Assembly: GCF_032854445.1 (NCBI RefSeq)
Contig: NC_088306.1
Span: forward strand, 20,183,764 to 20,247,763
DNA length: 64,000 nt
From: Liolophura sinensis
Taxonomy: Eukaryota; Mollusca; Polyplacophora; Chitonida; Chitonidae
Reading direction: 5' to 3'
Below the pieces are notes generated by a model. The model saw nothing but the letters and a program-made list of their open reading frames with translations, was not told the origin of the DNA and searched no databases. Positions 19,301 to 55,938 of this stretch are shown piece by piece. Every line of letters starts with the position of its first letter. The stretch's first letter is position 1. Made by a program: the position numbers and the translations under genes.

Positions 19301-19384
19301 ATGAGGTCGCTCGCTATCTTGTCCGTTTTCGTCGTGGTTGTCTATAGCAACACGGAGGTCAGCCGGGTCGAGACAGAGGTCGTG
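19301..19384 (+). CDS. Paralogue A exon 1 (signal peptide)
   Basis: Encodes 28 residues: a hydrophobic leader and the start of the mature protein. The donor is GTG|GTAAGA, phase 0. Confidence 0.75.
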
Positions 19385-22300
19385 GTAAGAGCTCAGCTCT
19401 CCGGGGTTCGGGTGGGGGCTGATTCCACAAAGCCATTTCTGAATTAAGTTAAAATTAAAACCTAATCACGGTGCATAGTTTTAGACACATGTTTATCTTA
19501 TGATAACATTTAAGACATTCGCAAAACTTTAATTTCTCGGCCGCAAAAATAAACGCCATAATTCAGTTTAAACTTTGAAAACTTAAATCGGAAATGGCTT
19601 TGTGGAATTGGCCTCAGACAAGTCCCTTTGCATTGTTTCATGTTATTGTTTATTATATATGACGACAACACAGTGTACTGAGTACATGTAATTTTATACC
19701 AATAACGTCTTCTAATTTCCAATTATTATCACTGTTTTTTTTTTTACGTAATTCTCCTTAAGCCATGGTGCCAGGGGTCAAGGGTTACAACTGACTTACC
19801 ATTTTTTTTTACTTAATTCTTCTTAAGCCATGGTTTCAGGGGTCAGGGGTTACAACTGACTTACCATTTACATGAAGAGTTTAAACAGAATAAAACCCTA
19901 ACTGAGGTAAAATGGTAAGTAGCCGGTGTCATCGGTTAAGTGTGACTCTTTGCAGCTTATTACACAGTCGTCGCTGATGTTGTTTTTTCATTTTCCCCTA
20001 GGACATTTCCCCTATGGATAATTTCCCCTATACGGACATGTTCCCGCTTGGACACTTCCCCTATGGACAATTTCCCCTGTGGATAATTTCCCCTATGGAC
20101 ATTCTCCCTAGGGACATTTTCCTTATGGACAATTCCCTTTACGGACATTTCCCCTATGGACAATTCCCCCTACGGACATTTTCCTTATTGACAATTCCCT
20201 TTACGGACATTTCCCCTATGGACAATTCCCCCAACAGACATTTCCCCTTTATAGACAACTCCCCCTAGGCCGTTTTCCCCTTAAAGACAATTCCTCTTAG
20301 AAGGTTTCCCCCTTAAAGACCATTCCCCCTAGGACATTTCCGCCCTAAAAACAATTCCTCCTAGGACGTTTCCCCCTTATAACCAGGCACTGGACACGTA
20401 TATTGTTGTTCTAATTTGATATCATTTATTAAAGTCTGTCATTGTTCATACAATGGTTGATATTTTTGTTCATTAACTTAAAGTTCATGGCGAAAAAAAG
20501 ATAGGTAAAACAAGCTTAAATGCGCAACATGGTGCCATTGAAGTATCATGCCGAAGACACCAGACATGACACCCCACCCAGTCACATTATACTGACACCG
20601 GACCAACCAGTCACGTTTCCTTGTTCTAAGCTCTCAGTGCTGAGCGCCAAGCGAGGCGGGAACAAGTGACATTTTTAACGTCTTTGGTAGGCTTACTTCA
20701 TATAAAAATAATATAATAATATGTGACTGAATATGCCGCTTCACTCTTGAAAAGAGTGCTACGAAGGGCAATAGAGCTTGCCGAACTGTCACTCAAGAAC
20801 ACGTAACTGACCAATCATAAACAGTATTGTTGCAAATAAGTCAACTGGGTGTCCCACACATCGGTTACAAATGTTCAATCTGTCTGTGACGTCATGATGT
20901 ACCAATTGCTTTCACCGGGAATGAAATGAAAAGTAACGTTGTCACGAGAAGGGGTGCTGGGGGATCAGATGTGTTGGATCTATCAATGCCAGTATCGAAA
21001 CTAACAGAATTTTATTCATTTTACCTTTTTTGGACAGCGAAATAACGATATATGTCCACCAAGGGCTGTGTGTGCCGACATCTTTGATTACAACCAAACA
21101 AACCAGACGACGGGAGAAGTGGTTGCTAAGAGACGGCGCGTGGTGAACTGTATGTGCCCAGAGAGAGGGGAATGCCCTAACCAGAGGCGTTACACCCTCC
21201 ACGCCACTTCCAGACACAGGTGGGTTCACCAATACCGCCGTTAACACTATTGTACTTACATGTTGAATAGAGCTCTTCTTTTTTTTTCACATTTGAAAGC
21301 ATTTTCGCCTGGGCCCCGCCTTGTCTAACGGGGTCTTGTTCTACGACTCATCATTGATTAATGACGTAATCAAGTCGGATCCAGGAACCGATTTCACAAA
21401 GCAACTGTAGACGTATGTCACAGTTTTAAAGACAAAGAAAACACTAACGTAAAGCATATGTCAGATGAAAGAGCATCAGATGCTTATCCATGGAGATAGT
21501 TCAGTTTATTTATTTTATTTTTTTTTTAGAGTTTTTTCAACTTAGTAAAATGCATTTGAAGTTTGGATTCTACGGCGGCCCTTTCTGATAGTTTTGGGGG
21601 CCAGTGACGTCACATCAGGTTTTTGTCACTGATACATTCCATCATTAAACACGTGTGGATGTGACGTCACTGATACGCTCTGGTTCCCTACAGACCACCG
21701 TAGACTCACATGTTCAAAAACCATTTTACTCGGTTGGAAAAATCATAAAAAATTAATCGAATTTTTTTCTTGAACTACATTCAATGGCCTTTGATCTGAT
21801 TAATACTTCATTTTAGTATTTTCTTTGGATTTAAAGTTCAATTTAATATGTGGGCATTGCGGTAGATTTTCTTATATTATCATTTTATAGGCGAACTCAA
21901 TTTCAACTTCTAACGTTCGAAAGTATGTGATAAATCCAAAGATAATAAAAAAAAACATTTGTACACCGGCCATCAACCAAAATGGACGTTCTAGGCCAAT
22001 AATGACAAGGCCATTTCCCAAAACAATGTTAAATACAAACCACTAAAGAACTAAGAAAATCTGTTAAATGTAAAATTAAGATGGATTCAATCAAAGGGAA
22101 TTTGTCAGTAGTTTTCAATGGAAAATCTGATTTCATATTTTGAATTAGACCAGAACTATAACTTTGTGGAAACAGGCGATGAATTCAATGGTTTAACCGC
22201 GGAAGAGAACTTGGAGCTGGGTAAAGCAAACACTGAAATAAAAAGGTACTGCTGTTATAATGGCGAAACACAGAAGCCGATACAGGACTGTTCGCTACCT

Positions 22301-25300
22301 GGCTAACTCAACTTTCGCAATACAGGGCGAAGTAGAGAAGCGTTGAGGTTGCGAAATGTGATTTCCTGCCCCCTATACAAAAGTTTTTCGGAGTTTCATC
22401 CTTTGCTGACAGGAAGATGGTGAGACGGGGTTCTGATTATTAGTCTTGGGTTATAATTTTGACTTCATCTTGTGTATTGTGTGACGACTACAAGTTATTG
22501 CTGCAATAATTGTTGACTGTGTCTCAAGATTATTCCGTCAAACGTTTTTGCTCTAAGTTTCATAAGTTTCACAGTGAGTATGATTTTATTGTAAGGTAAT
22601 ATGAACAGAGCGTCTAGAACCCGTGACACTTTGCTTCATACCTGTGTTTAAATCCTCGTAACCTTGGGCTTTTGGCTCTGTTTTCATCGTGTTGAATTAG
22701 AGTGTGACCTTGGATATATGAAAAGTTCCAATCAAAGCGTAAGTGAGATACATGTTTTGCTCATCGACAACTTACATACCAACATAGTACACGATTTAAA
22801 TACTTATTCATACATTCGCCTACAACGTGTGCCTTTCTATCACCGCTGAAAACTGTTGACTGTTTCTATTTGAATGATTCCGTCCTAATTTCGTACTTTA
22901 TATACTTTCTTAATTTTTTGGTGGTTTGTGTTAAACGTCGTTTTGGGAATTGGCCTTGCAATTTTGGACCCGAAACCTCTATTTTGGTTGACGGCGGGTA
23001 TACGAATGTCTGTTTCGACTTATAGATTAAGGTTTAATCGGTACCTCTTTCGTACATCTAGAAGTTTACTTATTTTTTTCCATGATCTTTTCCCCATCAT
23101 TAGGCAGCAGATCTGCGAGTCTCGTAATTCGCTGAGTCGGTGTAAGAATGGAGATATAGCTGAACAGATGCACGTCGAAGCGGACTTATTTGACGGTAAA
23201 ACCTATTATAAGGTGAGAAAATGGCGCTGGTCACCATGAGAACTGTAACTAAGAAAGCTGAAACTAGGGCGTAATCAAGGTGAGGATATATCGCTGGATA
23301 CCATGGGAACTGTAGCTAAGAAAGCTGAAATCAATACGTAACCAAGGTGAGGAAATGGCAACGGTCACCATGGAAACTGTAACTAAGAGAGCCGAAACTA
23401 GGGCGTAACCAAGATGAGAAAATAGCGCAGGACACCATGGGAACTGTAACTAAGGGGAATGCAATTAGTACGTAACCAAGGTGAGAAATTGGCACTGGTC
23501 TCCATGTGAACTGTAACTAAGGGAACTGAAAGTAAGGAGTAACCAAGGTTACAAGGACCAGAGCTGTATCCTCATACAGCTCTGGTCACCATGGGAACGG
23601 TAAGTAATGGGAGTGAATCTAGTGCTTAATAATGTTGAGAAGATCGCACTGCTTACCATGGGAACTGTTATTAAGGACACGGGAACTAATGAGAAACCAT
23701 AGCGTGAATTGCTAAGGGGTTATTGGGGATAATAACTAAAACGTGCGACAACCGATAACCGGTAGATAAGCGTACTGTGTCGCATGTGCTTTAGTCACGT
23801 TTCACCTTTAGTTCCTGTAAAACGCCCCACCACTTATTGGTGGTTGCGAGGAGGTTGACTTCCAGGGAAAACCAATCAGCCAGAGACATGTGTCTTTAAT
23901 TGTATTGTATTCCTGCTTAACCCAGGATTCTGTTGGCGGACTAAGCATCTCCGAGACCTGGTCCTTTTGCATTCTTTTTTATATTATTGTGTGTTAAGTG
24001 AGACGACATCAGATCATTCTGAGCTATTCTAGACCAGTTACGTCTAATAAATTGAAATCAACATCACTGCATATTTTTCACCTAATTCTGCTGAAGCCAT
24101 GGTGCTAGGATGCGTGTAGTTTGTTACTATTTATGCATTTTACATGAACAGTTAGAATAAAACACCTACTGAGGTAAATTGACAGATGCCGTACTAGATC
24201 GCGCTTCACCGATTACGTGTGACCATTTGCCAGCTATCACACTGCCGTTGCTGGTCTGGTTACGCCTTTAATTGCATTGCACCCATTTGCTTTTATTTTC
24301 AGATGAACTGCAGATGCCGACGCCACAGAAACCCCGTGCCTAACGGGGGTTTCCGAGACAGGGCAACAGAATTGCTGGGACGAGTGTTCGAGGAGGACCA
24401 CTGGGTGCATAATTACGTCTGTGCTCGTGAGTAGGCTGGAATGGCATAGTGTATTAGATGCCTTTAGAGGTGGGTAAAACATAAAAAATTACATTATGTT
24501 CAGATGAAAGCGTGAGAAAAGTTAGTGGTAAATGTAGTCTTCAATATGTTTTGCAATTCTTTTAAGAGAAATGGACACTTGAAAGTAATGTCTTCCATGG
24601 TGGGTAGTTAGGACCACATCGAGGTATAAATTATCTTCACGTAATTCTATAAATGAGGATATTACATATGTTTAATAAATATACGTGCACAAGAATTTGT
24701 TTTTTTTGTTTTTTGTTGTTTCAGCTAACAAATGTGTTCAATCTGGATTTTGATCATATTTATGTTTTTCATATATTCAAAAATGTAATCATAATTCATA
24801 TTAAACGCATGTGTTTGGATATAAACAGCAAATTTACATTAAATTAGAAATGCATCACATACTTATCTGGAACATTACTATATATCAGTCGATATATACC
24901 AAATACCCGCCATACAAAAATATTTTCAAATACCCTTTTCTCCTGAAAAGAAAATATGACAAAATATTAAAGACCATATTTAAAAATAAGTTTTCACCTT
25001 CATCTGATTTTCACGTCATTTTTATGTTTTCTTCTCCTTTAAAGGTATATATGTTTCCCTTCGAACAGAATCAACGTGCGATGTGTAGATTTAAGGACAG
25101 GTTTTCATATGACTGTCTATTAAATGTGATGACAAAACAATACTCGAGTAGTTCTAGGCCTAAAATTGTGATTGTACTAATCAGTATCACCTTTTTTTAC
25201 CTAATTCTGCTAATGCTGTTCTGCTTTGGGGATGTCTAAGTTGCTACTATTTAAGTATTTACATGAACAGTTAGAATAGCTCAGTTCGAATAAAACAAGA

Positions 25301-25795: not shown

Positions 25796-26602
25796 GAGAG
25801 TTGCAATCATCGTGACATGGATTATCTGCCTTTTTTTCCTGGCACCACTAAATTTCTCTGGGTTTCTCCAAATAACCTGACCATCTTAGCGTAAAATAAC
25901 CAAAATCTTGTTCATAAATTTATAAATGTACAGTTTGTAAGGGTTTTTCTAGTTATCAAGATATATTTTTCGGCATGGTCAATTGTTTATATATACCGCC
26001 GTCATGTCGCCAAGTTGGAATGCGGGTACTACACAGAAGTAGTGTTCACATGTTTAGATGACTAACTAGAGTTACGCCCCTTAGAAGAACTAACCGGGCC
26101 ACCATACGGGAAGGATCACTCGGCCATTTTCGACACCACTTCCGAAAACTTCGCCAATGAGAAACTGGGAAGTAAAAGTTACCGAGAGGTCGGGCCATTA
26201 CGCAACATCTTATTACCGTCAGTGATATATGTCCAGTATTTGTTATTTGATATTAAGATATATTTGTATATCATGTAGACTTGTTAACAATCATGTTTAC
26301 AGAGATTCCAGGTAATCCATAACCGTGTACGTTTAATTTTATGTGAAAAAGGTTGAAGTCGAATACAGGACCGTGAAATCGAAGACGTCAGAGTTTCGCT
26401 GAAGTATAATCGACTGAGCACAGTCGACCAGGAATACAAAGGCATTACTATGTAGCTAAGCGAGAGCGCTTCGGGTTTAAAACTTTTGGATATGGAAATT
26501 TCCACAGTTAGGAACGAAATGATTCCACATACATGAAATTCTTTATGCCTATCTGAGAGTTTAATGTGACTGATAAGAAAACTGTTATTTTGACCGATTG
26601 TT

Positions 26603-26608
26603 AATAAA
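26603..26608 (+). promoter_or_regulatory. Candidate poly(A) signal of paralogue A
   Basis: AATAAA followed about 25-45 nt later by a T/GT-rich tract (TTTTTTTCCTGTCTTGTTTT). It implies a 3' UTR of roughly 800 nt. Confidence 0.5.
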
Positions 26609-26874
26609 AATTATAAGTGTCACCAAAATTTTTTTCCTGTCTTGTTTTGGTTTTCCATCGCCGGAAATCTCAGCCACTTGACAAATGAGTTCAGAAGTCA
26701 GGTCGAGATTTGTCAGGTAGTCCTAATTTTAAGCTATGCCCAGGGGTGTGGGGGCGATTTGTCCCGGGCTATTTCTTCTGTCCATAAACATTACTACCAT
26801 CATTAAGGTTAAAGATTTTTAGTACGGCTTACAACGCCGATCAAAAATAGAATAAATACATTTTAAGCATGTGA

Positions 26875-27795
26875 CAAACCATCTTCCACCCCGAAAAAAC
26901 ATCTCCCACCCCGAAAATGCAATCTCACAAACCGAATAAACATCTCCCACCCCGAATATGCCATCTCACAAACCACCCCAAATGTGAAATCTCACAAACC
27001 GGATAAACATCTCACAAACCGAATAAGCATCTCACAGACCGAATAAACATGTCCCACCCCGAATATGCATTCTCACATACCGAATAAACATGTCCCACCC
27101 CGAATATGCATTCTCACATACCGAATAAACATGTCCCACCCCGAAAATGCAATCTCACAAACCGAATAAACATCTCCCACCCCGAATATGCCATCTCACA
27201 AACCACCCCAAATGTGAAATCTCACAAACCGGATAAACATCTCACAAACCGAATAAGCATCTCACAGACCGAATAAACATGTCCCACCCCGAATATGCAT
27301 TCTCACATACCGAATAAACATGTCCCACCCCGAATAAGCATTCTCACACACCGAATAAACATGCCCCACCCCGAATACGCATCTCACACACCGAGTAAAC
27401 GTCTCCCACCCTGATTAAGCATCTCATATACCGAATTAACAGCTCCCACCCCGGATAAACATCACACAAACCCATTAAACATCTCCCACGACGAATATGT
27501 AATCTCACAAACCGAATAAGCATCTCACTCACCGAATAAACATTTCCCACCCCGAATAAACATCTCCAACGCCGAACAAACATCTCGCACACTGAGTAAA
27601 CACCTCCCACTCCGAATAAACGTCTCCCAGCCCATATAAACATTTTGCACCCCGAATAAACATTTCCAACGCCGAACAAACATCTCGTACCGTGAATAAA
27701 CACCTTCCACACCGAATAAACGTCTTCCACACAGAATATACATCTTGCGCCCTGAATAAACATCTCAATAACCGAATAATCATCATGTCCCATCA
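26875..27795. repeat. About 21-bp minisatellite with a 230-bp higher-order repeat
   Basis: Units resemble CCCACCCCGAATAAACATCT and TCTCACAAACCGAATAAGCA. The block beginning CCGAAAATGCAATCTCACAA at 26911 recurs at 27141, a 230-bp higher-order duplication. Because 21 is a multiple of three, several minus-strand frames stay open, giving repetitive peptides that are not genes. Confidence 0.9.
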
Positions 27796-27935
27796 TGTCA
27801 AAAAAGCATGTCCCATCAGATTAAATTGACACATTAAATTTTGAGTGTAGTTCTCCTGTATTGCCAAAGAGAATACTGATTAATACATCTAGGACCCGAG
27901 TCAGAATTTTAATGTTCTTATGACAGTAACCTATA

Positions 27936-30877: not shown

Positions 30878-31012
30878 TTCCTGAGTTTTTTTGTTTTGTT
30901 TTTTTTGCAGCGAGTTCTGTGTCAGTTTCTTCTAGTTATATATATATATAACTATAATAACATAACTATAACAAACTGACACAGAACTCGCTGCCAAAAA
31001 AATCTCAGGAAT
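30878..31012. repeat. Foldback element with a nested TA palindrome
   Basis: Left arm TGCAGCGAGTTCTGTGTCAG is matched by right arm CTGACACAGAACTCGCTGCC. Outer ends TCCTGAG and CTCAGGA also pair, with T-rich and A-rich runs between. The loop holds TAGTTATATATATATATAAC, itself a near-palindrome. Confidence 0.8.
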
Positions 31013-33547: not shown

Positions 33548-33637
33548 ATGGCGTCAGTAACTCATCTCCTGGTGGCCGCATTTGTCGTAATCACTATTGC
33601 TTTTGCCAAGAAAGATCGGGGAAGTTTCTCCTTCAGG
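33548..33637 (+). CDS. Paralogue B exon 1 (signal peptide)
   Basis: Encodes 30 residues: the leader and KKDRGSFSFR. Its last bases, TTTCTCCTTCAGG, followed by donor GTGAGT, look like a 3' splice site joined to a 5' splice site. Phase 0. Confidence 0.78.
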
Positions 33638-36600
33638 GTGAGTATGCTGTTTCTTGTCTGGAAAAAAAAAACCCAAAATACAAACACGATATAAAGTCGA
33701 TCGTGAATTAGCAATGTTGCAGGGAAGTTTTTCCTTCAGGGTGAGCATATTGTTGCTCGGTTCATGTTTATCGTGTTTGAATAAGAAACCGATCCCTAAA
33801 GGCTGAAAAGTTAATCCATTTCCATATCATGTAATGGTTAAGATCAGGGGAGCTTCTTCTTCCAGGTGAGCATACTGATCCATGGTTGATGATTATCTTG
33901 TCTGAACAAAAACAAAAGCGATCTAAAATTGATCCTCTTTTCATATCAGGTAATAAGACAGCTCGTATAAGTTTCCCTTTCAGGGTGAGTATATTACCTC
34001 ACGGTGCACATTCATATCTTTAAAATAATGGCGATATTTTTTATCCAGTTTCCGTGTTAAATCTCTTCTTATAGTCAAAAGCCAATTCGAGTTTACTGTT
34101 TCACAATTCTTGTTTATATCTTGTCTGAACAAAAAGCCAATTGCGATATAAAATGGATCTTCTGTTCATATCATGTAATAAGACAGCTAGGGAAAATTTC
34201 TCTTTCAAGGTAAGTATATTGCTCACGGTACAGGTAAATATCGTAACTTCACGATACAGGTTTATATCGTTACTTCATGGTACAGGTCAATATCGTTACT
34301 TCACAGTACAGGTCTATACCTTTACTTCACGGCACAGGTCTATATCATTGCTTCACGGTACACGTTTATATCGTTACTTCAAGGTACAGGTCTATATCGT
34401 TAATTCATGGTACAGGTCTACATCGTTACTTCATGGCACAAGTTTATATTGTTACTTCACGGTACAGGTCTATAACGTTACTTCACAGTACCGGTCTATA
34501 TCGTTATGTCACGGTACATGTTTATATCTTTACTTCACAGTACAGGTCTATATCGTACTTCACGGCACAGGTCTATATCGTTACTTCACGGTACAGATCC
34601 GTGTCGTTACTTCACAGTACACGTTTATATCGTTTCTTCACAGTGCATGTCTATATTGTTACTTCACTGTACCGGTATATATCGTTACTTCACGGCACAC
34701 CTTTATATCTTTACTTCACAGTACAGGTTTATATTGTTACTTCACGGTCCACGTTTATTTCCCTATCAAATCCGTACTTGTAGTCAAAAGTCAATTCTCA
34801 TACTAATATGAACCATTAAAGCTTTAGGGAAGTGGTGTAAAATTCAGATAAAACTTAATAATGGTCAAAAGCCATTTTGGGGCCTCCGTGACCGATAGGT
34901 TTAGCACATCAGCACGGCACAATGACCCACAAACTTCTCACCAATGCGGTCGCTGTGAGTTCAAGTACAGCTCACGCTGGCTTCCTCTCCAACAGAATAT
35001 TATTATGTTGAATTTGACACAATCTGGTGTTATACCAACAGAATACATTCTAGCATCTCTCAGACAACTGACTTTCTGTTAACATTAAGGGATTACTTTT
35101 TTGATTGAAGTGATAACACAAATCTGTAACAGCAACACTTTCTAGCCATGGCATCTCGTATTTCTGGCAACTATACGGCGTGTATACGGTATCGGCCTAG
35201 AACGTGTACCGAGACATGCTGTTATATTTGTACAATCAATATCTTACTTATACCTAACTGCGCAATCTCTCTCGTTTTTTTCTTGCCCAATGACTATAAT
35301 TGTGCACACCCACAGCTCTCTGTTGTGCTCAGTAATTGTTAATCCTTATTCCCCTAGCAGAAAAATCTACAACCGAACAAAAAAACCTATCGATTACAAC
35401 AGAGCCTGACGTCTACATCTACATACTGGTTGGGTTCAGCGAGATTGACGCAACGAGATTCCCTACAATATAGGACTATGGCGGTTAAGGGCTCACTTAT
35501 CTTCGTGAGCTTCATCAAAACAGCCCCAATGCTGGAAGAATATGAACGTTAAGGCACCCGGAGCATTTCGAAGTATTACGACTTGCCGACCGGAACCCTT
35601 CGAAGAGTTGCAAGCGTCATGAAAGAATAATTCCAACCTCTCGTTGTCGTAGTTCACGTAAAACGATGACGTAGTATTGCGGAAAACTGGATTGCCCGCA
35701 GTGATTTTTTTGGAGAGTTACTGCACCTCTTTCCACTTGTGACGTAGGCTTATATACGTCATATTAGTGGAAAGCAGGTGGCCTCCAGCAAACCTTGCAT
35801 AGGCACAGAACAAAGCAGTGTAGAACTCCTATGCCACTAATACCCTGAGAACAATGAATGAAGGGGTAACATTGATAAGGCGAGTCGGCATCTCAGGAGT
35901 CCGCCGAGTTCGCACAGATATGGACGAGGCAGCTTGGGGCTCTCGAAAATTAACGCAGTTAAAATGCGAGATTTTACGGTACTTGCGAGAATGAATACAC
36001 ATCTCGCACAGCCGGGTGTGTCAGCTCAACGTCGCCGTTAGCAGCCACCGTAAAACCACGCCTTTTAGTCGCGTTAGTTCGGGAGAGCTCCCACTCTGTC
36101 TCACCTCATCTTGCGTGAACTCGTGAGATTCCTGAAATGCCAACTCGGCTTATTGGTCCACTCTTTCATTAATCCGTCAATAATGTCATTAATGTAGATT
36201 TATCTATCTATACTTTTTTTTTTCCTTGTCATTCCCAGTATTTGCCCCGCCCCTTGTGCCCGGAAAACGCCGTGTGCGCCGAGGTAAATACACTGAGCAG
36301 GAAACCCTGGGACGAGAATGACGTCTCACTGCCGCTCTTTACCTCATTCATATGCAAATGTCCGGAGGATCAGGAATGCCCTACACATCCGGGCACCCAC
36401 ACGTTGCATGTTGGGAAGGGGAGATGGTAAGAAAAAAGGTTTATTGAGGTTTTACCGGAGACGATGATCTACAAAAAAAAAAGTACATATCCAGTCGAAT
36501 TTTTGTTTTTAGTTTAAAAGAGACCAATTATTTACTTTTAATACAGCCACGTTTGTGCATGTTTTACCGTTTAGAATCGTTAATAAGTTACCTGAAAAGC

Positions 36601-39600
36601 GGGCTGCGTTATCAAACTTTTTCAAAATTTAGAATCATTTTAAAACTATTAATAATATAGTTTACGATTCAAATATTTATTGAAAGGTAATAATCTGAGC
36701 CAGATTGAAAAATATATTTAATTTGATTAGCGAATACATGTTTTGGGCCGAAAATCACCGGTATAGCCTCTGTAATTTACTATAATTTAGACCAATAACG
36801 AGCAACACAGGTGTAAAATGGCGAATTCTGCCTTTAGGTATTCCATGTGTAAGCCTATCTGTTCATTCGAGAAATGTGAGAGGCGGGCTATAGCGGAGGA
36901 GGTCCTGTACAAGGCCAAGGACTTTGGGGGCCGTACTTATACCAAGGTAAGATAACCAATACCGAGGTAAGATAGCCAAACGATGTTTAAAACAAACTAC
37001 CAAAGAACTAAGAAAGTATATAAAGTACGAAACTAGGACGGAATCGTACAAAGAGAAGCAGTCGACAGTTTCCAATAATGTTGAAAAGATACAAGGTATG
37101 TTGTAGGCGATCGAGCGAAATCAGTGTTCAAATGGTGTACCATGCCAGTGTATCGATGTTATCGATAATAACAAATATGTTGCGCTTTGATGGTAAATGT
37201 TCATATATCCAACGTAGCGATTTAACTTAATACGATGAAAATACATCCCCTCGCCGCGGGTTGATCGGAACTAGACGCAATCATGAAGCAGAGCGCCAGA
37301 GATAACCCACACGAAGGTAAGATAACCTACACAAGGTTAAGATAATCTACAACAGGGTAAGATAATCTACAACAGGGTAAGATAACCTACACCAGGGTAA
37401 GATAACCTACATTAGTGTAAGATAGCCTACAACAGGGTAAGAAAACCTAAACCTGGGTAAAAACACTCATGAGGGTAAGATAACGTACAGCAGGGTAAGA
37501 TAACCTACAGCAGGGTAAGATAACCTACAACATGGTAAGATAACCTACATCAGGGTAAGATAATCTACAGCAGGATAAGATAACCTACAACAGGGTAAAA
37601 TAACCCACACCAGCGTAAGATAACCTACAACAGGGTAAGGTAACCTAAACCAGGGTAAGGTAACCTTCACCAGGGTAAGAAAACCTAAACCTGGGTAAAA
37701 ACACACATGAGGATATTATAACCTACAGCATGGTAAGATAACCTGCAGCAGGGTAAGATAACCTACAACAGGAAAAGATAACCCACATCAGGTAAGATAA
37801 CCTACACGAAGGTAAGATAACCTTCACCAGGATAAGATAACCTTCAACAGGGTAAGATAACCTACAGCAGGGTGAGATAACCTATAGTAGGGTAAGATAA
37901 CACACACCAGGATAAGAAAATCTACACCAGGGCTAGATATCCTACTCCAGGATGAGATAACCTACATCAGGGTAAGATAACCTACAACAGGGTAAGATAA
38001 CCTACATCAGGGTAAGATAACCTTCAACAGGGTAAGATAACCTACAACAGGGTGAGATAACCTATAGTAGGGTAAGATAACACACACCAGGGTAAAAAAA
38101 TCTACACAAGGACTATATGTCCTACTCCAGGATGAGATAACCTACATCAGGGTAAGATAACCTACAACAGGTTAAGATAACCTAAAACAGGATGAGATAA
38201 CCTACATCAGGGCTAGATATCCTACTCCAGGATGAGATAACCTACATCAGGTTGGATAACCTACAACAGCGTAAGATAACCTACATCAGGGTTAGATATC
38301 CTACACCAGGGTAAGATAACACACTCCAGGGTAAGATAACTTACAATAGGGTAAGAAAACACACAGCAGGGTGAAGAAAACACACACGAAGATAAGAATG
38401 TCAGGGGGAACCAATCTGATTAAAGCCTGGCCGTATGTGGTTTAAAGCAAAGCGATGTACAATCGATCTGATTTTAATCAGATTGAGAAACACGCTTTAA
38501 GGAAGCGTTTTATTTATTTGTTTATTTTGCAATTGTTTTTTTAGCCGATGGCGGCCTAAAAGAAATGCTTAAAAGTAATATCTCTGTATGGGAGAACCAT
38601 GAACTTGTTTCTTACTTTTTGACACTGTCCTTGGATATTGATAGTGTAAGCTGAGTGCAACTGCCACTGACATACGTTGCCAGGGTAGACTCTATATTGA
38701 TAGTACGGATATGAGAGTGATCTCCATTGTCCACAGGTGAACTGCCTGTGTCCAGGCCACGAAAACAGCGACATGACCGACGAGGAGGCGGCCACGATGT
38801 TCCGGGAGAGTAAGACTGACGACCCCCGGGCCGATGTGGTCTACCAGAGGACATGCACATGTGAGTGGAGATGGAATTATATCTGGGGGAGGTTAAAGAT
38901 GATGTACCGGAGATTTGTGGCAAAAAATCCATATTTGCTAATCATAACAAATTTTCTGTATTTGCCAAGAATACCTCAGATCATTGCCTTTCGTAAATAT
39001 CTGACTCGTGTCTTTAATATTTATAGTTTTAAAATGATTTCAGAGTTTGAAAATGTTATAAAGAGACCTGCTGCATACACTTTAGGATCCAGTACTCGAT
39101 ACGGTAGCACATACGCAGACGAGGCTGATATTTTGTAGCAATTAAAGTCTAAAATAATAGCAAAAATTCCAGTGTATTTGACGCTGATCGATTTTTTTTT
39201 TGCCAAAAATCTTTGATATGACCTTAAAAAAAAACATAAACTCAAAGACAAATGAAACTGACAACGCCTGGGCCTATAGACTTCTACCTGCACGAACTGA
39301 GCATACTGTACGCACGTTGTTACACATTGCATGAAAACGAAAGTAATTTAACATTTTACAAAAAGACAAAAAAAGAGGCCGTCATCACTGGACACACCTT
39401 TTTAAAGCATTCTTCAATATAATGGTGTGTTGTGGCGACTCTCTCGGGTCCAAGATGGACTGAGCATTGTACTCTTGGAGTCTGTGACAATATTAGGTTA
39501 TCCAAAACTTATCCCTAAGAGAGGAATGGTCAGGACCGAATTATTCAAGGCGAGAAAAATTCCCTATTAAATGCCCCTTGGGTTTCGAAGGTGTCACACG

Positions 39601-46850: not shown

Positions 46851-46852
46851 TC

Positions 46853-46887
46853 TCATCTCCACAGGCGACAGGTGTTGTCTTTACTTC
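46853..46887 (-). CDS. DAW1: DAW1 exon 12 (last coding exon)
   Basis: After TTTTTAG it completes Gly and encodes [10 protein letters not shown] and TGA, the C-terminal strand that closes the propeller. Confidence 0.93.
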
Positions 46888-49800
46888 CTAAAAATCAAAA
46901 CACAAACACAACAATTAAATACTTCACAACAGCTAAATTGTCACATTTGGAGTAAGACGTTCGCATATTCAAACACCCACCAGATTTTTTCCTGATGTTT
47001 GCTGAATTTCTGCCATGAGAAAACTCAACAGATGGACACTGAATTCAAAACCCACACCACGCATTGAAACAATCTGTTTCCTGAGGTGAAATTTCAACCA
47101 TGGATATACAACAAATCAAGTCTGAGTCCAGGGAATTTCAGTACACAAAATTTAAACTTGTACGCATGATTAGCAGCCCAAAATACTTTACATCTGTACA
47201 TGTCTTAATATACAGTTGGCAACAAGGATACACTGCATCCTTTTACCAAACACAGTTTGTATGTGTAGCAAAGCCCAATATCTTGTCATCATCTGTGATA
47301 TTTTGTCACTTTCCCTACTTCACGTGTTATAACGGTAATCACCTTATAGTTAAATGCACAATTCAATATCTAGTCTTCCTCTGTGACATTTTGTTACCTG
47401 CCCTATATTACCTCTAAAAATGATATTCCCCTCGTAGTCAAATGCACAGCTGAATATCTAGTCATCATCTGTGATATTTTGTTACCTGCCCTATCTTACC
47501 TCTAATAATGATATTCCCCTCGTAGTCAAACGCACAGCTGAATATCTAGTCATCATCTGTGATATTTTGTTACCTGCCCCACCTTACCTGTTATAATGGT
47601 ATTTCCCTCGTAGTCAAACACACTGCTGAATATCTAGTCATCATCTGTGATACCTTACCTGTGATAATGGTATTCCCCTCATAGTTAAATGCACAGCTGA
47701 ATATCTCGTCAGTGTGACCCTCCAGGATCTGTTTGCACTTCCCCGTCTCTGGATCCCACAGTCTGGCCGTCTTGTCAGAGCTGGCAGTGAGAACGGACGT
47801 ACCTTGTGGATTAAAGGTTATCTGGAGCAAAGACAAACATTGTGTTAAAGGAAGTTTCAAAACCTTAAAGGTATGCCAGTCATGATAGAGTGACTAACAG
47901 ACAATGTATTCAGGTTTGGAACTCGTGATCGAAATGAAGAGTCCTCAAATTTCAAACTCTCAAGTAAAGCAGTTCTTCAAATACCGTAAGTGCTGACATG
48001 AAAAACCAACAAATTATAAAACTGGAGAGAGCCGGGTTTGAACTCTGAACCATCAAACTCACCTTGGAGATCTCCCCTTCATGGCCCTCAAACTTGGAGA
48101 CGAGGTTATGAGTGGTAGCGTTGTAACAGCGCGCGGTGGAGTCTGCCGAGGCTGTCAACAAATGCTGACCAGTGAAATCAAAGGCTACATCCAGTACTTC
48201 ATCCTCGTGTCCTCGCAGGGTGCCCACACAACGACCTGCCCAAGGAATTAGGGGTAATCATGAAACAACCCAATCCCACATATCACATGAATATCTACAG
48301 GTAATATCAAGTCAACAAGACACGCATACACAGGCCATGATGATGCAGGCAATATGCCAAAACTTCATGTAACAAGTTTTTCTTTCATTATGGTCCTTGT
48401 ATACTAAACTAAAATAATATTTCATTTGCATACTACACAATACTGTAAATAACTACATCTACCATATCTACAAGTTCTAGGAACATCCAAACAAGTTTTT
48501 ACTGTCTTGCACTGAAAACACTTCAAGCCAAGTCCAGCAAACTTCTCACGTGTTCTTTGGTCAGTATATTAAAACAATACTGATAGTTCCATATGCACAT
48601 GTACACAAGATTATTAGACATGTATAATGGTGGTACAGTAGCAGTACCTGAAGGGAGATGACTTACCGTTAGAGGTGTCCCAGATTTTACAGGTTTTGTC
48701 CATGGAGCCTGTGGCCACTAGGGAACAGTCCCAGTTGAACTGTGCACTACTGATCTCAGCCTTATGACCAATCAGAGTGTGGATACGTCTGCAATGACAT
48801 GTGAATCAATTAATGAATGTCCTAAATTGAACTATTCCTGTGCGATCTGCTGCCTCACTGAAGTACCATGTTGACAACGCCAGACATGACACCTAGTTCA
48901 TACACCCACAGCACTGTGACACTAGGCTGATCAGAACTTGGCTTATCCATGTCTGCGGAATGTCCAAGGATGAGAGTGAACTGCGATCGTCCCCAGACAA
49001 GACAGACACTTATCCTCCCATAACTCTGCTTATTTATTATTCTTCATAGGCTATAGAAATGCTTCCGCAGCTTATGTGGTTAGACAGTCCACCTGGAAAT
49101 CGGGGGACCTCAGCTAACATCAAGCTCGGTTCATATCCAAAGACTTTAAAAATGGTACTTTTTGCTGCTTCACTTGGTACTCAGCACTGACAGGTGACAG
49201 GAAAGGTTGGCCTGCTGTGAGTATAATGTGACTGGGTGAGGTGTCATGTCTGGTTTCTTCAGCATGATACTTCTGTGGTGGCTGCACTTTGGCAGCATGG
49301 ATTCTCCCCTGCCACAAGAAGACACAGTATACATGCACATGTATGTCCATACACCTAATGACAACTCATCATGATATGACTGAAAAATTACATACACAAC
49401 CCAACAACCCAAGCATAGATACATAGGATATATCCAACTTTTTACCAGAATGGTACTTAGTTGTCTCGGGGACAGCATGCTAGTGAGGCCTACTGACCCA
49501 GGAGAGCCCTAACAAAGCAATGACGTGAGTTAAAGCCATTGCCGCTTATGCTGGTTTTTCCTCCCAAAGCAGGATGGTCTCTCAGGGCCCAGTTTCACAA
49601 AGCGGGGTATAACATCTCTCAGGGCCCAGTTTCACAAAGCAGCAAATAACATTTTTGGATCATAAATTTGCCGTACGATATTTTGTACATCACTATTACA
49701 GCACCATTGTACTCTATGTGCAACTGTGAAACTGGGCCCAGCAACCTGCGGACGGTCGTGAGTTTCCACTGTGAGAGAAATATTTTTTGGTACGGCTTAA

Positions 49801-52800
49801 AATACCAATTAAATAAATGAATAAAAAAACATGTCGACTAGACACACACTATGTCAGAAAAATCAGTGACATGCATGGTATCATAAGAAAATATTAATTA
49901 TTACTCATGGATTACTCCATCTTGATTGTCCCTACTGCTATAAATCAGTTACACAGATTATCTTACCTGCTGCTTCTCACATCCCACACTGACACTGTGT
50001 GATCAAATGACCCTGTAATCAACTGAGTGCCAGTCGTGTTGAACGCAAGGGAGATAATCTCTGCAGTGTGGCCCTGTGATTCAATGAAGTAATAAATTCT
50101 ATGACCAACAGCAATTGCATGTTTGTAGTGTATCTAGCTTACATCTGCATATTTATGAAATATTAATATTCTGTATATATGCACACAGAGTAAATGTTAA
50201 CACTGCACAGCTATTATTGATGGCATGGCTTCATTTAAATCTTGAATCTGACAAACCGAAGTCAAATAGGCAGACAATGTGACCATATAATTAAATAAAT
50301 GAATAAATGAACAGTATGGTACAGTAAACTTTACCGCTAGAGTGCCAAGATCTTGTCCTGTCTCCACATCCCAGAGTTTGGCAGTGTTGTCCATGCTGCC
50401 CGTGGCCACCACAGTGCTCTGAGGGTTGAAACTCAAACACACCTACAACGAAATAATACATGCACTCTGACTTTTGTCTTCTTATCCCCAAAATATGAGA
50501 ATGAATTTCCAACACGTTTATTGTTAAAATTTTGTTTTTAAATTAATATATTTTTCAATTAAATGCTTTTAATTAAATATTACATTAAATCTTCCCACCA
50601 TACAACAACATTAAGTCAAAAAATACTACTGTTAACTGAAACCTTTGGCTATGAATGTTCACATAAATACCACCATGTGGAAAACCTATAAATATTCTGA
50701 AATAGGGGCCTGATGCATCTGACATATCCTTGTCAAATGACCAAATTTACTGCATTTAGACTGTATTTAGAAACACCAATTTTAGTTTTTTTTTTACAGG
50801 CAACACTAAAAAATGCAAACAACTTGAAAATCTACCTTTTATTTTGCCAGATCTGTTTTGTCTGATTATGATTTTTCTGTTTTTCATGACATTCCGATCA
50901 CATTAATGTGTCTTTAACAAACAATTGTTGAGACAGTCTACATCTACCACAAACATGACAAATGAGTTGATTTTTCAGTCAGTTTTTTCTTTCCTTTTTG
51001 AAAAAAAAAAGGAAAAAAGATCCTTTCTGCCTTTAAAAGAAAAATTTAAATTAGTGTGGCCTTAAGGAAGATTAGTTGTACTTACAATTTCAGCAGAGTG
51101 CCCTCTGTAGGTATGGTAACACTTTCCGGTCTCTGCGCTCCATAACTTACAGGTTTTGTCAAAAGATCCTGTAGCAATCTTATCCCTAAAAAAAAAAAAA
51201 TCAGAAAAAGGGAAACCTGTAATAAACTGAAGTTCAAGGAGTGGTGTTCTTTGTTTTATACAAAAATGAAGGTATCTTGGATCACGTTTCTTCAAAGTTA
51301 TAATATTAATAGACTGACAAAACTGCCGGACAAAATAATCCACACAAAAGTAATAATACTACTACAAATGAAAATATCTCACATAAGGCCTTTAATTTAT
51401 TTATTTATTTCATTAAACAAACGCTTATACCAACAATAACTGGAGCTGAAATATTAATTAATTATTCAACTTGGAATTTTAATAACCTGAAAAGTCTCAA
51501 AGGTATGCTATAATATGTAAACAGTGTAGGAAAACATGAGGAGGTTGAACAAATCAGGATGTTTAACAAAATGTATTTCCTCTGACAGGTGTTATATGCC
51601 ATACTCAAGAATATTCCACTTATACAACGTATGGCAACCAGCATAAAGGTGGGAGGAAACCGGCCAGAGCACAGGGAAAAACCCATGACCATGGAAAATC
51701 CAAAGTTTATACAAATAAGACTGAATGTTCAATGTGAGGATGACCATAAGACTTACCCATAGGGGTTGTTAAATGCTATAGCGTAGACAACATTCTTGTG
51801 TCCCTCCAGGGTGTGTAGCTCTTCCCCAGAGGCTGTATCCCACACCTTACAAGTACGGTCATAACTTCCAGTGATGAAGCTGACCAAAGAACAGGTGAGC
51901 GGTTAATTAACTTTTCCTTTGAAGTCAGGGAACACTAAATAAGTCCTTTTAAATATTGCACTTCTGATGACAAATCAGAATCTATTAAAGACATGTTTTT
52001 CTTAAAAGCATTAAATAACCAACTGATTGTTACCTGTGATAAAATTAGAAACCGATGATAAATCAAAAGACACATAAAGGTTTACTGCCTTTTCTGAACT
52101 TTTATCTTCACACGTCTAATAAACAGAACTGAGGAATCTTCATAAAGTTATTTAAATGAAAAATGTTTGGGGCCGAATTAAAAAAGCCTTTTTTTAACTT
52201 AAACCAAACTTTAAAAACTCTTAAATACATGCAGTTTTTGGTACTCAACCTTGAAATTTGAACACCTTTGTTTAAAGATAACATCAGTGACAAGGTCAAC
52301 AAAATTTTCATTTCTAAAGCTTAAAAAATAATCTTTTGTATTTCAAATTTTGACTGGAGTCAGAAAAGGCTTTGTCGAATCGGCTCTACATCTGTATGAG
52401 GTGTTCAGTAGTATTCAAACCTGACTGTCACGCCCACTGCTGATATTGATAAGCATGTACTTACCTGGATCCAGATTTATTAAATGACACATTAGTCAGC
52501 GGAAGAATATGTGCTCGTAGAACTTTGAACAGGTAGAAGTGATGGTCATCTTTCTGAGCGAGCTTTTCCTGGAGGCCTGGTACAAAGTCAAGGTCAACAG
52601 ACACATCAAGGTCACATCAATTCCCCTTTGTTTTATAACATGAAGATTAAATATACTGCATGACCTCTATTAAACCTGGTGTTGACACCAGGTACTGATG
52701 ACTTTTACGAGTGATTGAATTCCAAGTAATACAGTTTTGTAATAGTTGTTGAAATAATAAAAGGCATTTACTTTTACATTATTTCTGTATCGAGCCATCC

Positions 52801-55800
52801 TTAAAATTTGGTAATATCCAACCATATCAGAAAAGACAGGGTCATTTGGTAGGGATTTCCTTTTTATATATAGATATATTCTAGCCCTTGGAAAAAGAAA
52901 CTAGATTTTAAAAGAAATTAACAGACATGACAGAGAGTTCATTTATAGGAAAATCAAGTTATTCCCAACATATACATTTTTATCAGATGCGTATTAAGTA
53001 AACGTTGTATCAATTCAGTGTGTTAATGATGATAATTGCGATGTACAAAGGATACGCTGAATAAGTTTCCGGACTTGCTCCGCTTTTGAAGCTGTTATCA
53101 AAGGCTCTTTTCTAGATATCTCATCAACAACAGCATCAGTGTCCGTCCTGAAACAAAGGCACATCCACATGTCTATCATAAGGGTCTACCATACAAAGAT
53201 GTGACTTTACATTATGCTGTAATTATATATATGTGGACATGTACTTGTTTTCTTTCATTTTCAATAACGTCTCGTTACTGTACTTACATTCTGTACTACT
53301 GCCATAACATTCTGATTGCTTAAATTTGAGATTCTATACATGACATGTATGCTGATTAGCTGTGAAATAAAATACAGTACATAATAAACTGAAAAGAAAA
53401 TACTATATTTACCCTAAAAACTTGGCCAATAAAGTGCATTCACAGAGGTAAATAAGGGTCATAAAATATTATTTTTATTCTCCACTAGGATATCATTGTA
53501 TCTTCCAAATAATCATAAACAGTGCCTTTGTAAGAATATGACATAAATTGTATTCATGGATGAAGTTTTAGATAATACACTGTACTTACTCTGGTCTCAA
53601 GTCCAGCAGATCTATGGATTTGGTTTTCAGTTTACCTCCTTGTTCATATTCCAGAATGATACCTAAAACAGATACAGTAACAAATAAGTAATAGTTAGAT
53701 AATACAATCTTCCTTTACCCACATATTATGATAAGTATTTGTAATAATACATTAATCACAGCATAACTCTTGCATATAAATTAGGGATCACCAGTATTTT
53801 TTTTTGAGGTCTGTCACTGGCTTGAGATGGGCATCCTTCTGACTTCATCTCTAATAAACCAACATCATCACCCTATCACATGATGACACTTGATTCTTTA
53901 TAACTCCCCTAGAGTGATCAAACTAGTCCATTCCACAGCGATGCTTACAGCCGTACTCAAGAATATTTCACTTATACGACGGTGGCCAGCATTATGATGG
54001 GAGGAAACCGGGCAGAGCACTGAGGAAACCCACGATCATCCACAGGTATCTGCCAAACCTTCCCAGGTACGGCCAGAGAGGAAGCCAGCATGAGCTGGAC
54101 TCATTTGGTGAGGGATTTCTGGGTCATTATGCTGCACTAGCGTGCTAACTGACTGAGCTGTAATGATTTAAATCACTGCCACTACTTGCAAATTTCGAAC
54201 ACGAATCTTGAAGTCACTGGGGTCACAGTGATGAGGCAGGAAGTCATGACAGAAAACATATAAACTCTGTTTTAATCTTTCTTCCTGGTAATACTTAATA
54301 CACATACATTTTCTTTGACTGAAGATTCCAACCAATACCTCCAACTATTTCACTGATGAATGTTGATTAAATAATTCCACAAGAGGACACCACTGGTGAG
54401 GGTAAGGATAAGCCTAAGCCTTAACCCAGTGAGGTTCACTGACGAAGAAGTCAGATCTCGCCCACTTTTATAGATGCATGAACATCTATTAAATATGCTT
54501 ACCACATTAACCAAATTTATATATATGATTATAAATTTGTATGCTCAATACCAAGGCAATAACGCACACACAAGAGCAAATTAAAACTGCACAGCTCATG
54601 GCTAGAATCAATGATGACACAGTCTAATCCAACAAGAAATGGGAATCACTGAACTTTTAATAACAAAACATTAATAATAATTCAGGTAAATGCAAGTGAT
54701 ATTATTTCCTTTTCTATATTGTTATTCAGGTGTAACCGGTTTGACTTCTCCTTGTCTTTAAATCGATAACTGTACTGTGTTTGTATTCTGTAGTATAGTA
54801 TTTGCATTGCATTGTATATTTAAACATGTTTGTTGCAATAAAAATTTTTTTCACAAAATATGCAAAAAATATATATATTTATATATTTAAAATATATAAA
54901 AACAGAAATCTTAAACAACGCCATGGACACTGGAGTCACATTGATGTAAATGGTAAGCCTAAGCCTAAACAAGCCTGCATGTGTCTCACACCCCAAAGAT
55001 CAAGCTTGTTTAGTGGTGGCAGTGAGGTGAAGTGAGCATAAACAGAGCTGCACATGTGACATAAGTAGTATGCTAAACTGTAATTTTGGCATTTACTGTT
55101 ACACTTACTCTGTTGGGCAGTACTTAATCAGCATTACATTCTTTCACTCTACTCAACCATAGGAATATATAAGCAACCTGTGTTGAAAACTTAACGCAGT
55201 GAGATTCACTGAGGAGGGAGTCAGATCCTGCCCACATTCATACAGACACATGTCACAGGTCACATGCTGACAACCATTTGTTAAACACCGCCATGAATGG
55301 CCACTGTCAAGTCGGTAGACACTTTAATCCGCACTGATTTGCATGACTGATCCATGCTGTGTCACTACTGATCACAGTGATTAGAATTGGGAAAGAGCAT
55401 AACCCCTATAGGGCCTATCCACTGTATGGCCTGTATGGAAGGGTATATTACACTATAATGACGAATGTCAAAATTTAAATGCCATTACCCAGCTGGTAAT
55501 GAATGGACTGTAGTTGTCGACAGGCCGCATGGCTTAAAACAGCACACTTACTGATCCAGATGGACTTCACAGTCTAACCTTTCTGATCTGGTATTTGCAG
55601 AACTGTAACATTTAGCCATTTTTTTCATTCAAACTTTAACCTTATGGTGTACAGCTATACACGGAAAATAATCAAAAAGGTTCAACTCAGGTCCATAGCC
55701 TATGCCCTGTCTTCCGATAGACTAGTACCAAAGGTTTGTGTGCAACAGTCATGCAGGCTAGTCTGCTACATTAACAAGCACTATGTCGTTGTTGTTGCAC

Positions 55801-55938
55801 ACATTTAGCGCATTCATGGATCGGTCTATAACGAGTTGTTTTTGAAAATCGTTGTACAAACCAAATCCTGTACAGAGTTTCTTTTGGATAAACATTACCT
55901 GGAGGGTAGTATCGGAGGAGAAATCGTTTCAGTCTCAT
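46853..55938 (-). CDS. DAW1: DAW1/ODA16, dynein assembly factor with WD repeats (complete, 415 aa)
   Basis: Twelve coding exons join to a 415-codon frame with stop TGA at 46853-46855. This equals the length of human DAW1. Known role: a cytoplasmic adaptor that links outer-arm dynein to the IFT machinery (IFT46) for import into motile cilia. Residues about 1-90 are the N-terminal domain (start [39 protein letters not shown]). Eight WD40 repeats follow, with typical GH and WD-type ends such as [32 protein letters not shown] and [11 protein letters not shown], ending [10 protein letters not shown]. Coding exons from 5' to 3': 55899-55938, 53590-53662, 53056-53147, 52465-52576, 51757-51879, 51086-51185, 50335-50442, 49967-50073, 48667-48788, 48063-48235, 47659-47821, 46853-46887. 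Exon phases all agree. The last intron holds degenerate copies of the penultimate exon's end. Confidence 0.95.
47262..47658 (-). repeat. Tandem degenerate copies of the DAW1 exon 11 end plus splice donor
   Basis: About five units spaced 70-90 bp. On the minus strand each resembles ATATTCAGCTGTGCATTTGA, CTACGAGGGGAATATCATTA and then AGGTAAGATAGGGCAGG. The real exon has the same order ([24 protein letters not shown]). In copies with readable frame, the codon that is GAG (Glu) in the exon is TAG. Confidence 0.88.
47659..47821 (-). CDS. DAW1: DAW1 exon 11 (penultimate)
   Basis: Residues 351-405: rest of WD repeat 7 ([20 protein letters not shown]) and most of repeat 8 ([17 protein letters not shown]). 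The donor is ACAG|GTAAGG, phase 1. Degenerate copies of its last part follow in the intron. Confidence 0.95.
48063..48235 (-). CDS. DAW1: DAW1 exon 10
   Basis: Residues 293-350: WD repeat 6 ([30 protein letters not shown]) and the start of repeat 7 (GHEGEISK). It is the longest coding exon. Confidence 0.95.
48667..48788 (-). CDS. DAW1: DAW1 exon 9
   Basis: Residues 252-293, WD repeat 5 ([30 protein letters not shown]). Phase 2 to phase 1. Confidence 0.94.
48841..48990 (+). repeat. Interspersed repeat family B copy in a DAW1 intron
   Basis: CTGCTGCCTCACTGAAGTAC, ACGCCAGACATGACACC, GCACTGTGACACTAGG. Confidence 0.55.
49180..49312 (-). repeat. Interspersed repeat family B copy in a DAW1 intron
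   Basis: The plus strand reads GTATAATGTGACTGGGTGAG, GTGTCATGTCTGGTTTCTTC, AGCATGATACTTCTGTGG and GCTGCACTTTGGCAGCATGG. It lies inverted to the copy at 48841-48990 in the same intron. Confidence 0.65.
49578..49741. mobile_element. Foldback element with GGGCCCAGTTTCACAAAGC ends, left end duplicated
   Basis: Left end GGGCCCAGTTTCACAAAG occurs twice (near 49580 and 49622). The right end GTGAAACTGGGCCC is the inverse. A SINE family A fragment (to about 49830) follows directly. Confidence 0.65.
49742..49830 (+). repeat. SINE family A, short copy with internal deletion
   Basis: CAACCTGCGGACGGTCGTGA joined to GTGAGAGAAATATTTTTTGG and ending AATTAAATAAATGAATAAA. Confidence 0.65.
49967..50073 (-). 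CDS. DAW1: DAW1 exon 8
   Basis: Residues 217-252, WD repeat 4 ([30 protein letters not shown]). The acceptor is GAATCACAG. Confidence 0.93.
50335..50442 (-). CDS. DAW1: DAW1 exon 7
   Basis: Residues 181-216, WD repeat 3 ([29 protein letters not shown]). Thirty-six whole codons, phase 0 on both sides. Confidence 0.95.
51086..51185 (-). CDS. DAW1: DAW1 exon 6
   Basis: Residues 147-180: [20 protein letters not shown] of WD repeat 2 and the start of repeat 3 (RGHSAEI). The acceptor follows a long T run. Confidence 0.95.
51583..51697 (-). repeat. SINE family A fragment in DAW1 intron 5
   Basis: ATACTCAAGAATATTCCACT, GGTGGGAGGAAACCGGCCAG, AAACCCATGACCATGG. Confidence 0.7.
51757..51879 (-). CDS. 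DAW1: DAW1 exon 5
   Basis: Residues 106-147: rest of WD repeat 1 ([20 protein letters not shown]) and the start of repeat 2 ([16 protein letters not shown]). Confidence 0.93.
52148..52387. mobile_element. MITE-like foldback element in DAW1 intron 4
   Basis: Left end GGGGCCGAATTAAAAAAGCC and right end AGGCTTTGTCGAATCGGCTC are imperfect inverse copies. It belongs with 2671-2890 and 19412-19617. Confidence 0.55.
52465..52576 (-). CDS. DAW1: DAW1 exon 4
   Basis: Residues 69-106: end of the N-terminal domain ([20 protein letters not shown]) and the first strand of WD repeat 1 ([15 protein letters not shown]). Confidence 0.93.
53056..53147 (-). CDS. DAW1: DAW1 exon 3
   Basis: Residues 38-69 ([20 protein letters not shown]). 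The donor CAGC|GTATCC is the weakest in the gene. Confidence 0.9.
53590..53662 (-). CDS. DAW1: DAW1 exon 2
   Basis: Residues 14-38, including [20 protein letters not shown]. The acceptor is CTGTTTTAG and the donor GA|GTAAGT, phase 2. Confidence 0.92.
53940..54163 (-). repeat. SINE family A, near full length, in DAW1 intron 1
   Basis: GCCGTACTCAAGAATATTTC, CCTTCCCAGGTACGGCCAGA, GCTGGACTCATTTGGTGAGG and the head inverse TGCTAACTGACTGAGCTG. The AATAAA tail is missing. Confidence 0.8.
54164..55898. other. Rest of DAW1 intron 1, no separate gene seen
   Basis: AT-rich. Two related stretches (about 54385-54480 and 55165-55260) share CACTGANGAVGNAGTCAGATC-like sequence, suggesting an old repeat. 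Short plus-strand frames have no recognisable product. Confidence 0.4.
55899..55938 (-). CDS. DAW1: DAW1 exon 1
   Basis: Encodes [13 protein letters not shown] plus one base. The donor is CAG|GTAATG, phase 1. It completes a Gly codon with exon 2, as in the vertebrate protein (YYPPGI). Confidence 0.9.

Follow-up and report, generated by a model that had tools for sequence, protein, structure and literature searches.

The closest described systems are the mirages of amphioxus, reportedly the subject of work by Canestro in 2002, and the minisatellite of the human IFI6 (6-16) gene, said to have been treated by Turri in 1995. According to the consulted parts of the literature, the amphioxus mirages (Adh3, globins, TnC, PGBD5) are minisatellite-like tandem duplications over 5' or 3' exon-intron boundaries and are reported as not disturbing splicing (PMC3087553, PMC3902484). 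In IFI6, the consulted part of the source describes a minisatellite at an exon end that gives many donor-like sites, with two downstream repeat units serving as donors (PMC4526556). Internal tandem repeats at exon-intron boundaries, with units averaging 30 bp, are tied to novel introns and alternative transcripts in human segmental duplications (PMC2812944, in part), and introns gained by tandem genomic duplication likewise derive from splice-competent sequence copied in tandem (PMC4974935, in part). The consulted part of a cone-snail intron paper (PMC3862624) makes no mention of boundary-spanning arrays.

Boundary-spanning tandem units were found in Liolophura sinensis, both in a 64,000-nucleotide stretch of contig NC_088306.1 (the window; positions are counted from its first letter, Table 1) and at loci of a sample from the same 609-Mb genome. 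With the amphioxus mirages they have in common the duplication over the boundary, the presence of splice signals in many copies and units of 10 to about 160 bp, as far as the consulted parts of those papers describe them. The host, however, is a mollusc and not a cephalochordate, the copies number up to 54, and a sample rate can be given (about 6% of donors and 3% of acceptors). Unlike both the mirages and the human boundary repeats linked to alternative transcripts, these arrays are known from genome sequence alone. Unlike IFI6, no scored copy would preserve the reading frame, and unlike intron gain by tandem genomic duplication, the copies sit in existing introns.

Table 1. Exons and tandem arrays at or near splice donors in the window
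Feature	Positions	Strand	Basis
Paralogue A exon 3	23105..23212	+	open frame, acceptor before 23105, donor at 23213; ends ...TATTATAAG
Paralogue A intron 3 array, 67-bp unit	23210..23549	+	TRF and sequence; unit starts with AAGGTGAG
Paralogue B exon 1	33548..33637	+	open frame MASVTH..., phase 0, donor GT at 33638, TTCAGG/GTGAGTAT
Paralogue B intron 1, four diverged copies of exon-1 end and donor	33715..34222	+	copy donors 33741, 33866, 33985, 34210
26-bp array after fifth paralogue B intron 1 junction	34223..34748	+	TRF; starts 13 bp past that junction
Paralogue B exon 3	36845..36946	+	donor GT at 36947
Paralogue B intron 3, two-copy 20-bp duplication of exon-3 end and donor	36939..36979	+	TRF and sequence
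Paralogue B intron 3, 54-copy array, 20-bp unit CACCAGGGTAAGATAACCTA	37300..38381	+	TRF, column conservation
DAW1 intron 11 array, 88-bp unit	47277..47652	-	TRF, sequence, junction score 54
DAW1 exon 11	47659..47821	-	WD40 match of frame, splice sites; donor GT at 47658

Five arrays of the window had been claimed in a sequence-only reading to contain, or derive from, the adjoining exon end and donor, and four of them are real. The units in DAW1 intron 11 comprise the donor together with about 45 nt from the end of exon 11 and some intron sequence, and in paralogue B the exon-1 end and its donor recur downstream as claimed. In intron 3 of the same gene the donor is directly followed by the second 20-bp copy and then, after a gap of about 320 bp, by the 54-copy array, whose 20-bp unit is similar to that of the exon-3-end duplication. 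In intron 3 of paralogue A the array starts at position -3 of the donor, which lies inside the unit, but the exonic share of the unit is AAG only (3 nt). Self-similarity here extends to about 23699, and the junction score of 25 is below the cut-off of 30 used in the sample junction test. For the fifth array a donor origin finds no support: the similarity of its 26-bp unit to the preceding donor does not exceed that of random segments of the window (P = 0.10). A Pfam search with paralogues A and B returned no family, and the sole genome match of the paralogue A exon 3 peptide at E <= 0.1 is its own locus.

Similarity tests gave P = 0.015 for paralogue B intron 3, 0.016 for paralogue A intron 3 and 0.006 for DAW1; these values are ceilings, because the three backgrounds include the arrays themselves. 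The junction test (score >= 30) was positive at 3 of the 17 donors and 0 of the 16 acceptors of the window. Among these 33 sites three, namely DAW1 donor 3, paralogue A acceptor 1 and paralogue B acceptor 2, have low splice scores and an unreliable placement.

The genome sample was drawn from the surroundings of exons for myosins, kinesins and dyneins and comprised 160 stretches with 253 kb in all. Downstream junction copies were detected at 17/266 donors and junction copies at 9/275 acceptors, compared with 4/5,320 and 1/5,500, respectively, in mismatched-pair controls and none at either kind of site on the opposite strand of the site's own target. One donor and one acceptor match, both in L009, reflect the duplication of an exon and not an array, and were dropped, leaving 16 and 8. 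Of 267 donors, 128 lack a paired acceptor; each of these was set at the highest-scoring donor around the domain-match end, and some are possibly misplaced. Arrays containing donors thus recur across the sample, but they are not specific to donors, and boundary arrays of the sample include both 5' and 3' sites. With a fixed 250-bp target, 15/230 donor junctions were positive versus 26/209 positions at +60 (P = 0.048) and 25/198 at +120. The share lying inside arrays is therefore roughly double for intron interiors (about 12%) what it is for donor junctions (6.5%), and arrays are not concentrated on donors. TRF arrays of period >= 10 make up 11.4% of the 253 kb sampled.

Protein matches in the genome agree with a molluscan host. 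The closest match of the muscle myosin exon is 3i5f, which we take to be from squid. The hemocyanin beta-sandwich domain has eight matches in tandem on C8, one unit of which matches molluscan hemocyanins such as KLH1. A search of the genome for GFP, as a test for amphioxus, gave no match, a weak result, as the controls likewise matched nowhere.

We suggest that these arrays are probably minisatellites of the mirage kind, that is, products of a minisatellite turnover to which exon edges are not immune, the donor next to the exon presumably being the one used. Arrays arise throughout introns, exon boundaries not being exempt, and a local tandem duplication would by chance span the exon-intron boundary. 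Slippage or unequal exchange may then lengthen the array and make its units alike, until the real donor is trailed by anything from a few copies to dozens. At donors such arrays would be tolerated because splicing takes the exon-proximal, first-transcribed donor and leaves the copies inside the intron. In its favour are the junction copies at both kinds of site, the interior counts and the TRF coverage given above, the reports that amphioxus mirages leave splicing intact and, as detailed below, the lack of frame-compatible copies, the unit lengths, the GT columns of the 54-copy array and the mean donor scores. Several observations stand against this explanation. Left edges of arrays are denser near donors (29 within 100 bp, 11 at 100-300 bp) than mirrored right edges are near acceptors (21 and 23 in the same two ranges; P = 0.027); further, tandem occurrences of the donor motif AGGTAAGT across the genome exceed those of its reversed control about 1.5-fold, and the donor 9-mer is kept slightly better within copies than the rest of the unit.

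The first two of these observations bear on the proposal that donors, or the sequence just inside them, are favoured sites of array nucleation, for instance through breaks tied to R-loops or to U1 binding at the intron start, which we regard as unlikely. In the sample, left edges within 100 bp of a donor show a 2.9-fold near/far excess (P = 0.002); between -60 and +100 relative to the donor their density is 0.61-0.77 per kb, compared with 0.15-0.34 per kb farther out, and the acceptor side has a ratio of 1.0 and no trend; however, the 100-bp cut was picked after inspection of the data. Within the 50 bp named by the sequence-only reading the excess falls to 1.8-fold (P = 0.064; donor versus acceptor, P = 0.27), and of the 17 arrays in 16/126 full introns, 9 are nearer the donor and 8 nearer the acceptor. 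The motif counts are similarly divided. Per single motif, genome-wide, tandem pairs of AGGTAAGT are 1.48 times and triples 1.55 times as frequent as in the reversed control, a comparison with one control motif in which matches sharing an array lack independence. Among the first 100 listed sites (all on C1), 29, grouped in 7 clusters, lie no more than 150 bp from another site on the same strand, as against 0/100 in the control. When the reach is set to 500 bp, on the other hand, the first 100 listed single sites on C1 give 7 donor clusters (40 sites) versus 6 control clusters (13 sites), and triple-motif arrays among the matches listed on C1 occupy 15 loci for the donor motif and 15 for the control. 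It is conceivable, if doubtful, that the first 100 bp of introns are a preferred birthplace of arrays in this mollusc, where about 1 in 16 donors would be followed by between 1 and 53 copies of itself, any of which would disrupt the protein if used.

Selection for redundant donors was among the causes considered in the sequence-only reading, and it finds little support here; that the copies are kept as redundant or decoy donors, either as splicing insurance or for U1 binding along the intron, we judge very improbable. In 15 of 19 arrays at least one copy is as strong as the true donor. The mean donor score, which speaks for the mirage reading, is 10.0 for true donors versus 7.8 for copies (P = 0.0006), a difference tilted towards the true donor because some donors were chosen by best score. 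The donor 9-mer conservation is 0.925 versus 0.905 for the rest (18 arrays, P = 0.039), a test that took in 14 of the 16 curated sample donors, L124 and L040 (one copy) being excluded. The comparison of GT columns with other adjacent pairs, however, gives P = 0.07. In the 54-copy array the G and T of the donor are conserved at 0.78 and 0.93, and the other 18 columns at 0.78-0.96 except one at 0.35, so that the best-kept position is not the GT. Further, of the 175 donor-like copies scored across 19 arrays, not one would yield an in-frame, stop-free product. A copy here means a match to the junction core at >= 14/22 bases, a few such matches being out of register (+45 in paralogue A intron 3, the second AGGT in the L158 unit), and the count took in 15 of the 16 curated sample donors, L124 at index 1281 being excluded for its irregular copies. 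For the 19 first copies the zero is weak evidence, as by a rough estimate chance alone would leave about 2.5 of them in frame and stop-free. Only 2 of 17 unit lengths are divisible by 3 (paralogue B intron 1 and L069 are left out for irregular spacing), and acceptors are duplicated too.

Finally, it is scarcely credible that several arrays near donors are a local coincidence of the window with no broader pattern: 3/17 donors is not much higher than the 16/266 of the sample (P = 0.079 for at least 3 of 17 and 0.017 for at least 4, both for a window selected because of the pattern itself) and intron 3 of paralogues A and B represents the corresponding donor in two paralogues, but the pattern recurs in the sample, on several chromosomes and in genes for myosins, kinesins and dyneins.

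Arrays of the mirage kind in this mollusc show that a phenomenon described from a small number of amphioxus genes occurs in another phylum as well, and they add a rate to it. Near-identical donors lie 20-140 nt apart here with the first alone compatible with the protein, and the choice of 5' splice site could be studied on them without engineered minigenes. Arrays that copy an exon-intron boundary are also plausible raw material for intron gain. If the first 100 bp of introns were indeed a preferred birthplace of arrays, the genome would hold a large natural experiment in which the spliceosome reliably picks the first of many equal donors, as well as a standing source of new introns.

Four of the 17 donors (5' splice sites) tested in the window lie inside adjoining arrays, namely those of intron 3 of paralogue A, introns 1 and 3 of paralogue B, and intron 11 of DAW1, and none of the 16 acceptors (3' splice sites) tested there adjoins an array that contains it; three of these 33 sites score low and may be misplaced. 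In the clear case, B intron 1, the donor and the end of exon 1 are present four further times, with spacings of 103, 125, 119, and 225 bp. The sequence-only reading had counted four or five such arrays: these four stand, while for the fifth, a 26-bp array following the junction copies (repeated exon end plus splice signal) of B intron 1, derivation from the donor was not demonstrable by similarity. The gene models rest on open frames together with splice sites. Paralogues A and B, two separate genes each modelled with four exons, encode small, apparently secreted proteins, which matched no family in a Pfam search of the modelled products. The minus-strand gene is presumably DAW1, as in the earlier reading; its WD40 frame was confirmed by domain search.

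The surrounding 609-Mb assembly was sampled through exons found by Pfam search (81 matches to myosin heads, 132 to kinesins, and 90 to dynein AAA_6), which gave 141 adjacent exon pairs. Sequence was obtained for 160 of the 162 stretches chosen, 253,243 bases in all, and 267 donors and 276 acceptors were placed in it. A 42-nt piece of each junction (30 exonic, 12 intronic) was aligned to up to about 890 bp of the adjoining intron on the same strand; the target was too short at one donor and one acceptor. At a score of at least 30, junction copies were found downstream of 17 of 266 donors and at 9 of 275 acceptors. With targets swapped from other loci the counts were 4/5,320 and 1/5,500, respectively, and no donor or acceptor passed against the opposite strand of its own target. 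Thus, donor-containing arrays recur beyond the window, but acceptors have copies too. Most of the passing cases listed are arrays, their units measuring about 25 to 140 bp. Among the sampled stretches, L040 has a single additional copy, copies are few or irregular in L039, L024, and at one site of L124, and one donor and one acceptor of L009 pass owing to a duplicated exon, with no array. After removal of the latter, donors exceed acceptors by 16/266 versus 8/275 (P = 0.096). Arrays detected by TRF span 15/267 donor versus 7/276 acceptor sites (P = 0.082). The difference is a trend rather than a demonstration.

The L009 locus (~430-1625; C1:26.642-26.643 Mb) is a muscle-type myosin gene with the same exon twice side by side (profile positions 118-152 and 121-152), a candidate pair of mutually exclusive exons. 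The closest match of a muscle myosin exon was 3i5f, which we take to be squid myosin, followed presumably by scallop and then vertebrate entries.

The position of arrays was compared using a fixed 250-bp target for all sites. On the donor side, the share in arrays is 6.5% (15/230) at the junction, 12.4% (26/209) at +60 (P = 0.048 versus the junction), and 12.6% (25/198) at +120; on the acceptor side it is 3.3% (8/241) at the junction versus 10.8% (22/204) at -120 (P = 0.002). Since the shares rise inward from both junctions, arrays are commoner in intron interiors than at either edge. Array starts give a partly different picture. Left edges number 0.69 per kb at -60 to 0, 0.61 at 0 to 50, and 0.77 at 50 to 100, and 0.15 to 0.34 beyond, whereas mirrored edges at acceptors (0.23 to 0.80 per kb) follow no comparable trend. 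Placing the cut at 100 bp, a choice made post hoc, gives a near-to-far ratio of 2.9x (P = 0.002), the far zone reaching 300 bp; within the 50 bp proposed for nucleation at donors, an excess is seen (1.8x) but at P = 0.064. In full introns, 17 arrays occur in 16 of 126, nine nearer the donor and eight nearer the acceptor.

Genome-wide, the donor motif AGGTAAGT occurs 26,582 times versus 29,090 for its reversed control, the one control motif used. It forms 550 versus 389 triples at periods of 20-50 bp and 1,341 versus 992 pairs at 51-81 bp; scaled to the single-motif counts, the ratios are 1.55x and 1.48x, respectively, with matches in one array being non-independent. Among the first 100 triple matches listed per motif, all on C1, each motif has 15 loci. 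Among the first 100 single sites listed, a same-strand neighbour lies within 150 bp for 29 donor motifs (7 clusters) and no control, and within 500 bp for 40 (7 clusters) and 13 (6 clusters). The direction of these counts fits a mild donor excess, though genes may simply be richer in arrays.

Selection for redundant donors, suggested earlier as a possible cause, finds little support. We scored 175 copies in 19 donor arrays (four from the window, plus 15 from the sample, where 16 cases remained after curation). At least one copy is as strong as the true donor or stronger in 15 of the 19, and the donor 9-mer is slightly more conserved within copies than the remainder (0.925 versus 0.905, P = 0.039, 18 arrays). 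However, the GT pair differs from other pairs at P = 0.07 (18 arrays), and its conservation is unexceptional in the 54-copy array of B intron 3. Unit lengths are divisible by three in 2 of 17 cases; 48 of the 175 copies are spaced from the true donor by a multiple of three, and no copy offers an in-frame, stop-free extension. For distant copies this is expected by chance; for first copies, 0/19 is no strong depletion, as about 2.5 would be expected by a rough estimate. The sequences give little indication of copies being retained for use.

Other features of the window
Feature	Position	Strand	Remarks
Reverse transcriptase fragment	62967-63410	minus	RVT_1, E 1.2e-8
Inverted repeat, AT-rich centre	~30905-30995		by eye
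GC-rich, repeat-like stretch after inverted repeat	to ~31450		
Dispersed SINE-like repeat	4.7k, 9.8k, 10.5k, 13.7k, 16.7k, 27.9k, 54.0k, 59.2k, 63.6k	both	six-frame self-matches
21-bp array	62496-62614		starts directly 3' of apparent stop codon of short open frame

A stretch resembling the SINE-like repeat is also present in L124. Elsewhere in the genome, the hemocyanin beta-sandwich domain has eight tandem matches in 11.4 kb (C8:37880506-37891931; L162, L163). A single one of these units was compared with the PDB, where it matched hemocyanins such as KLH1. From this and the myosin match above, we read the genome as molluscan. A genome search for GFP-like genes gave no match, a weak result since its controls matched nowhere either.

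We met no report of boundary-spanning arrays in molluscs in the open-licence literature, mostly judged on less than full text, which does not imply absence from print. In amphioxus, such minisatellites are called mirages; according to PMC3087553, globin genes carry them at both 5' and 3' boundaries, RT-PCR suggests that they leave regular splicing undisturbed, and they may give rise to introns. PMC3902484 adds PGBD5 as a case and cites Adh and TnC. The kind of array is therefore already known, and what is added here is its frequency and its occurrence in a different phylum.
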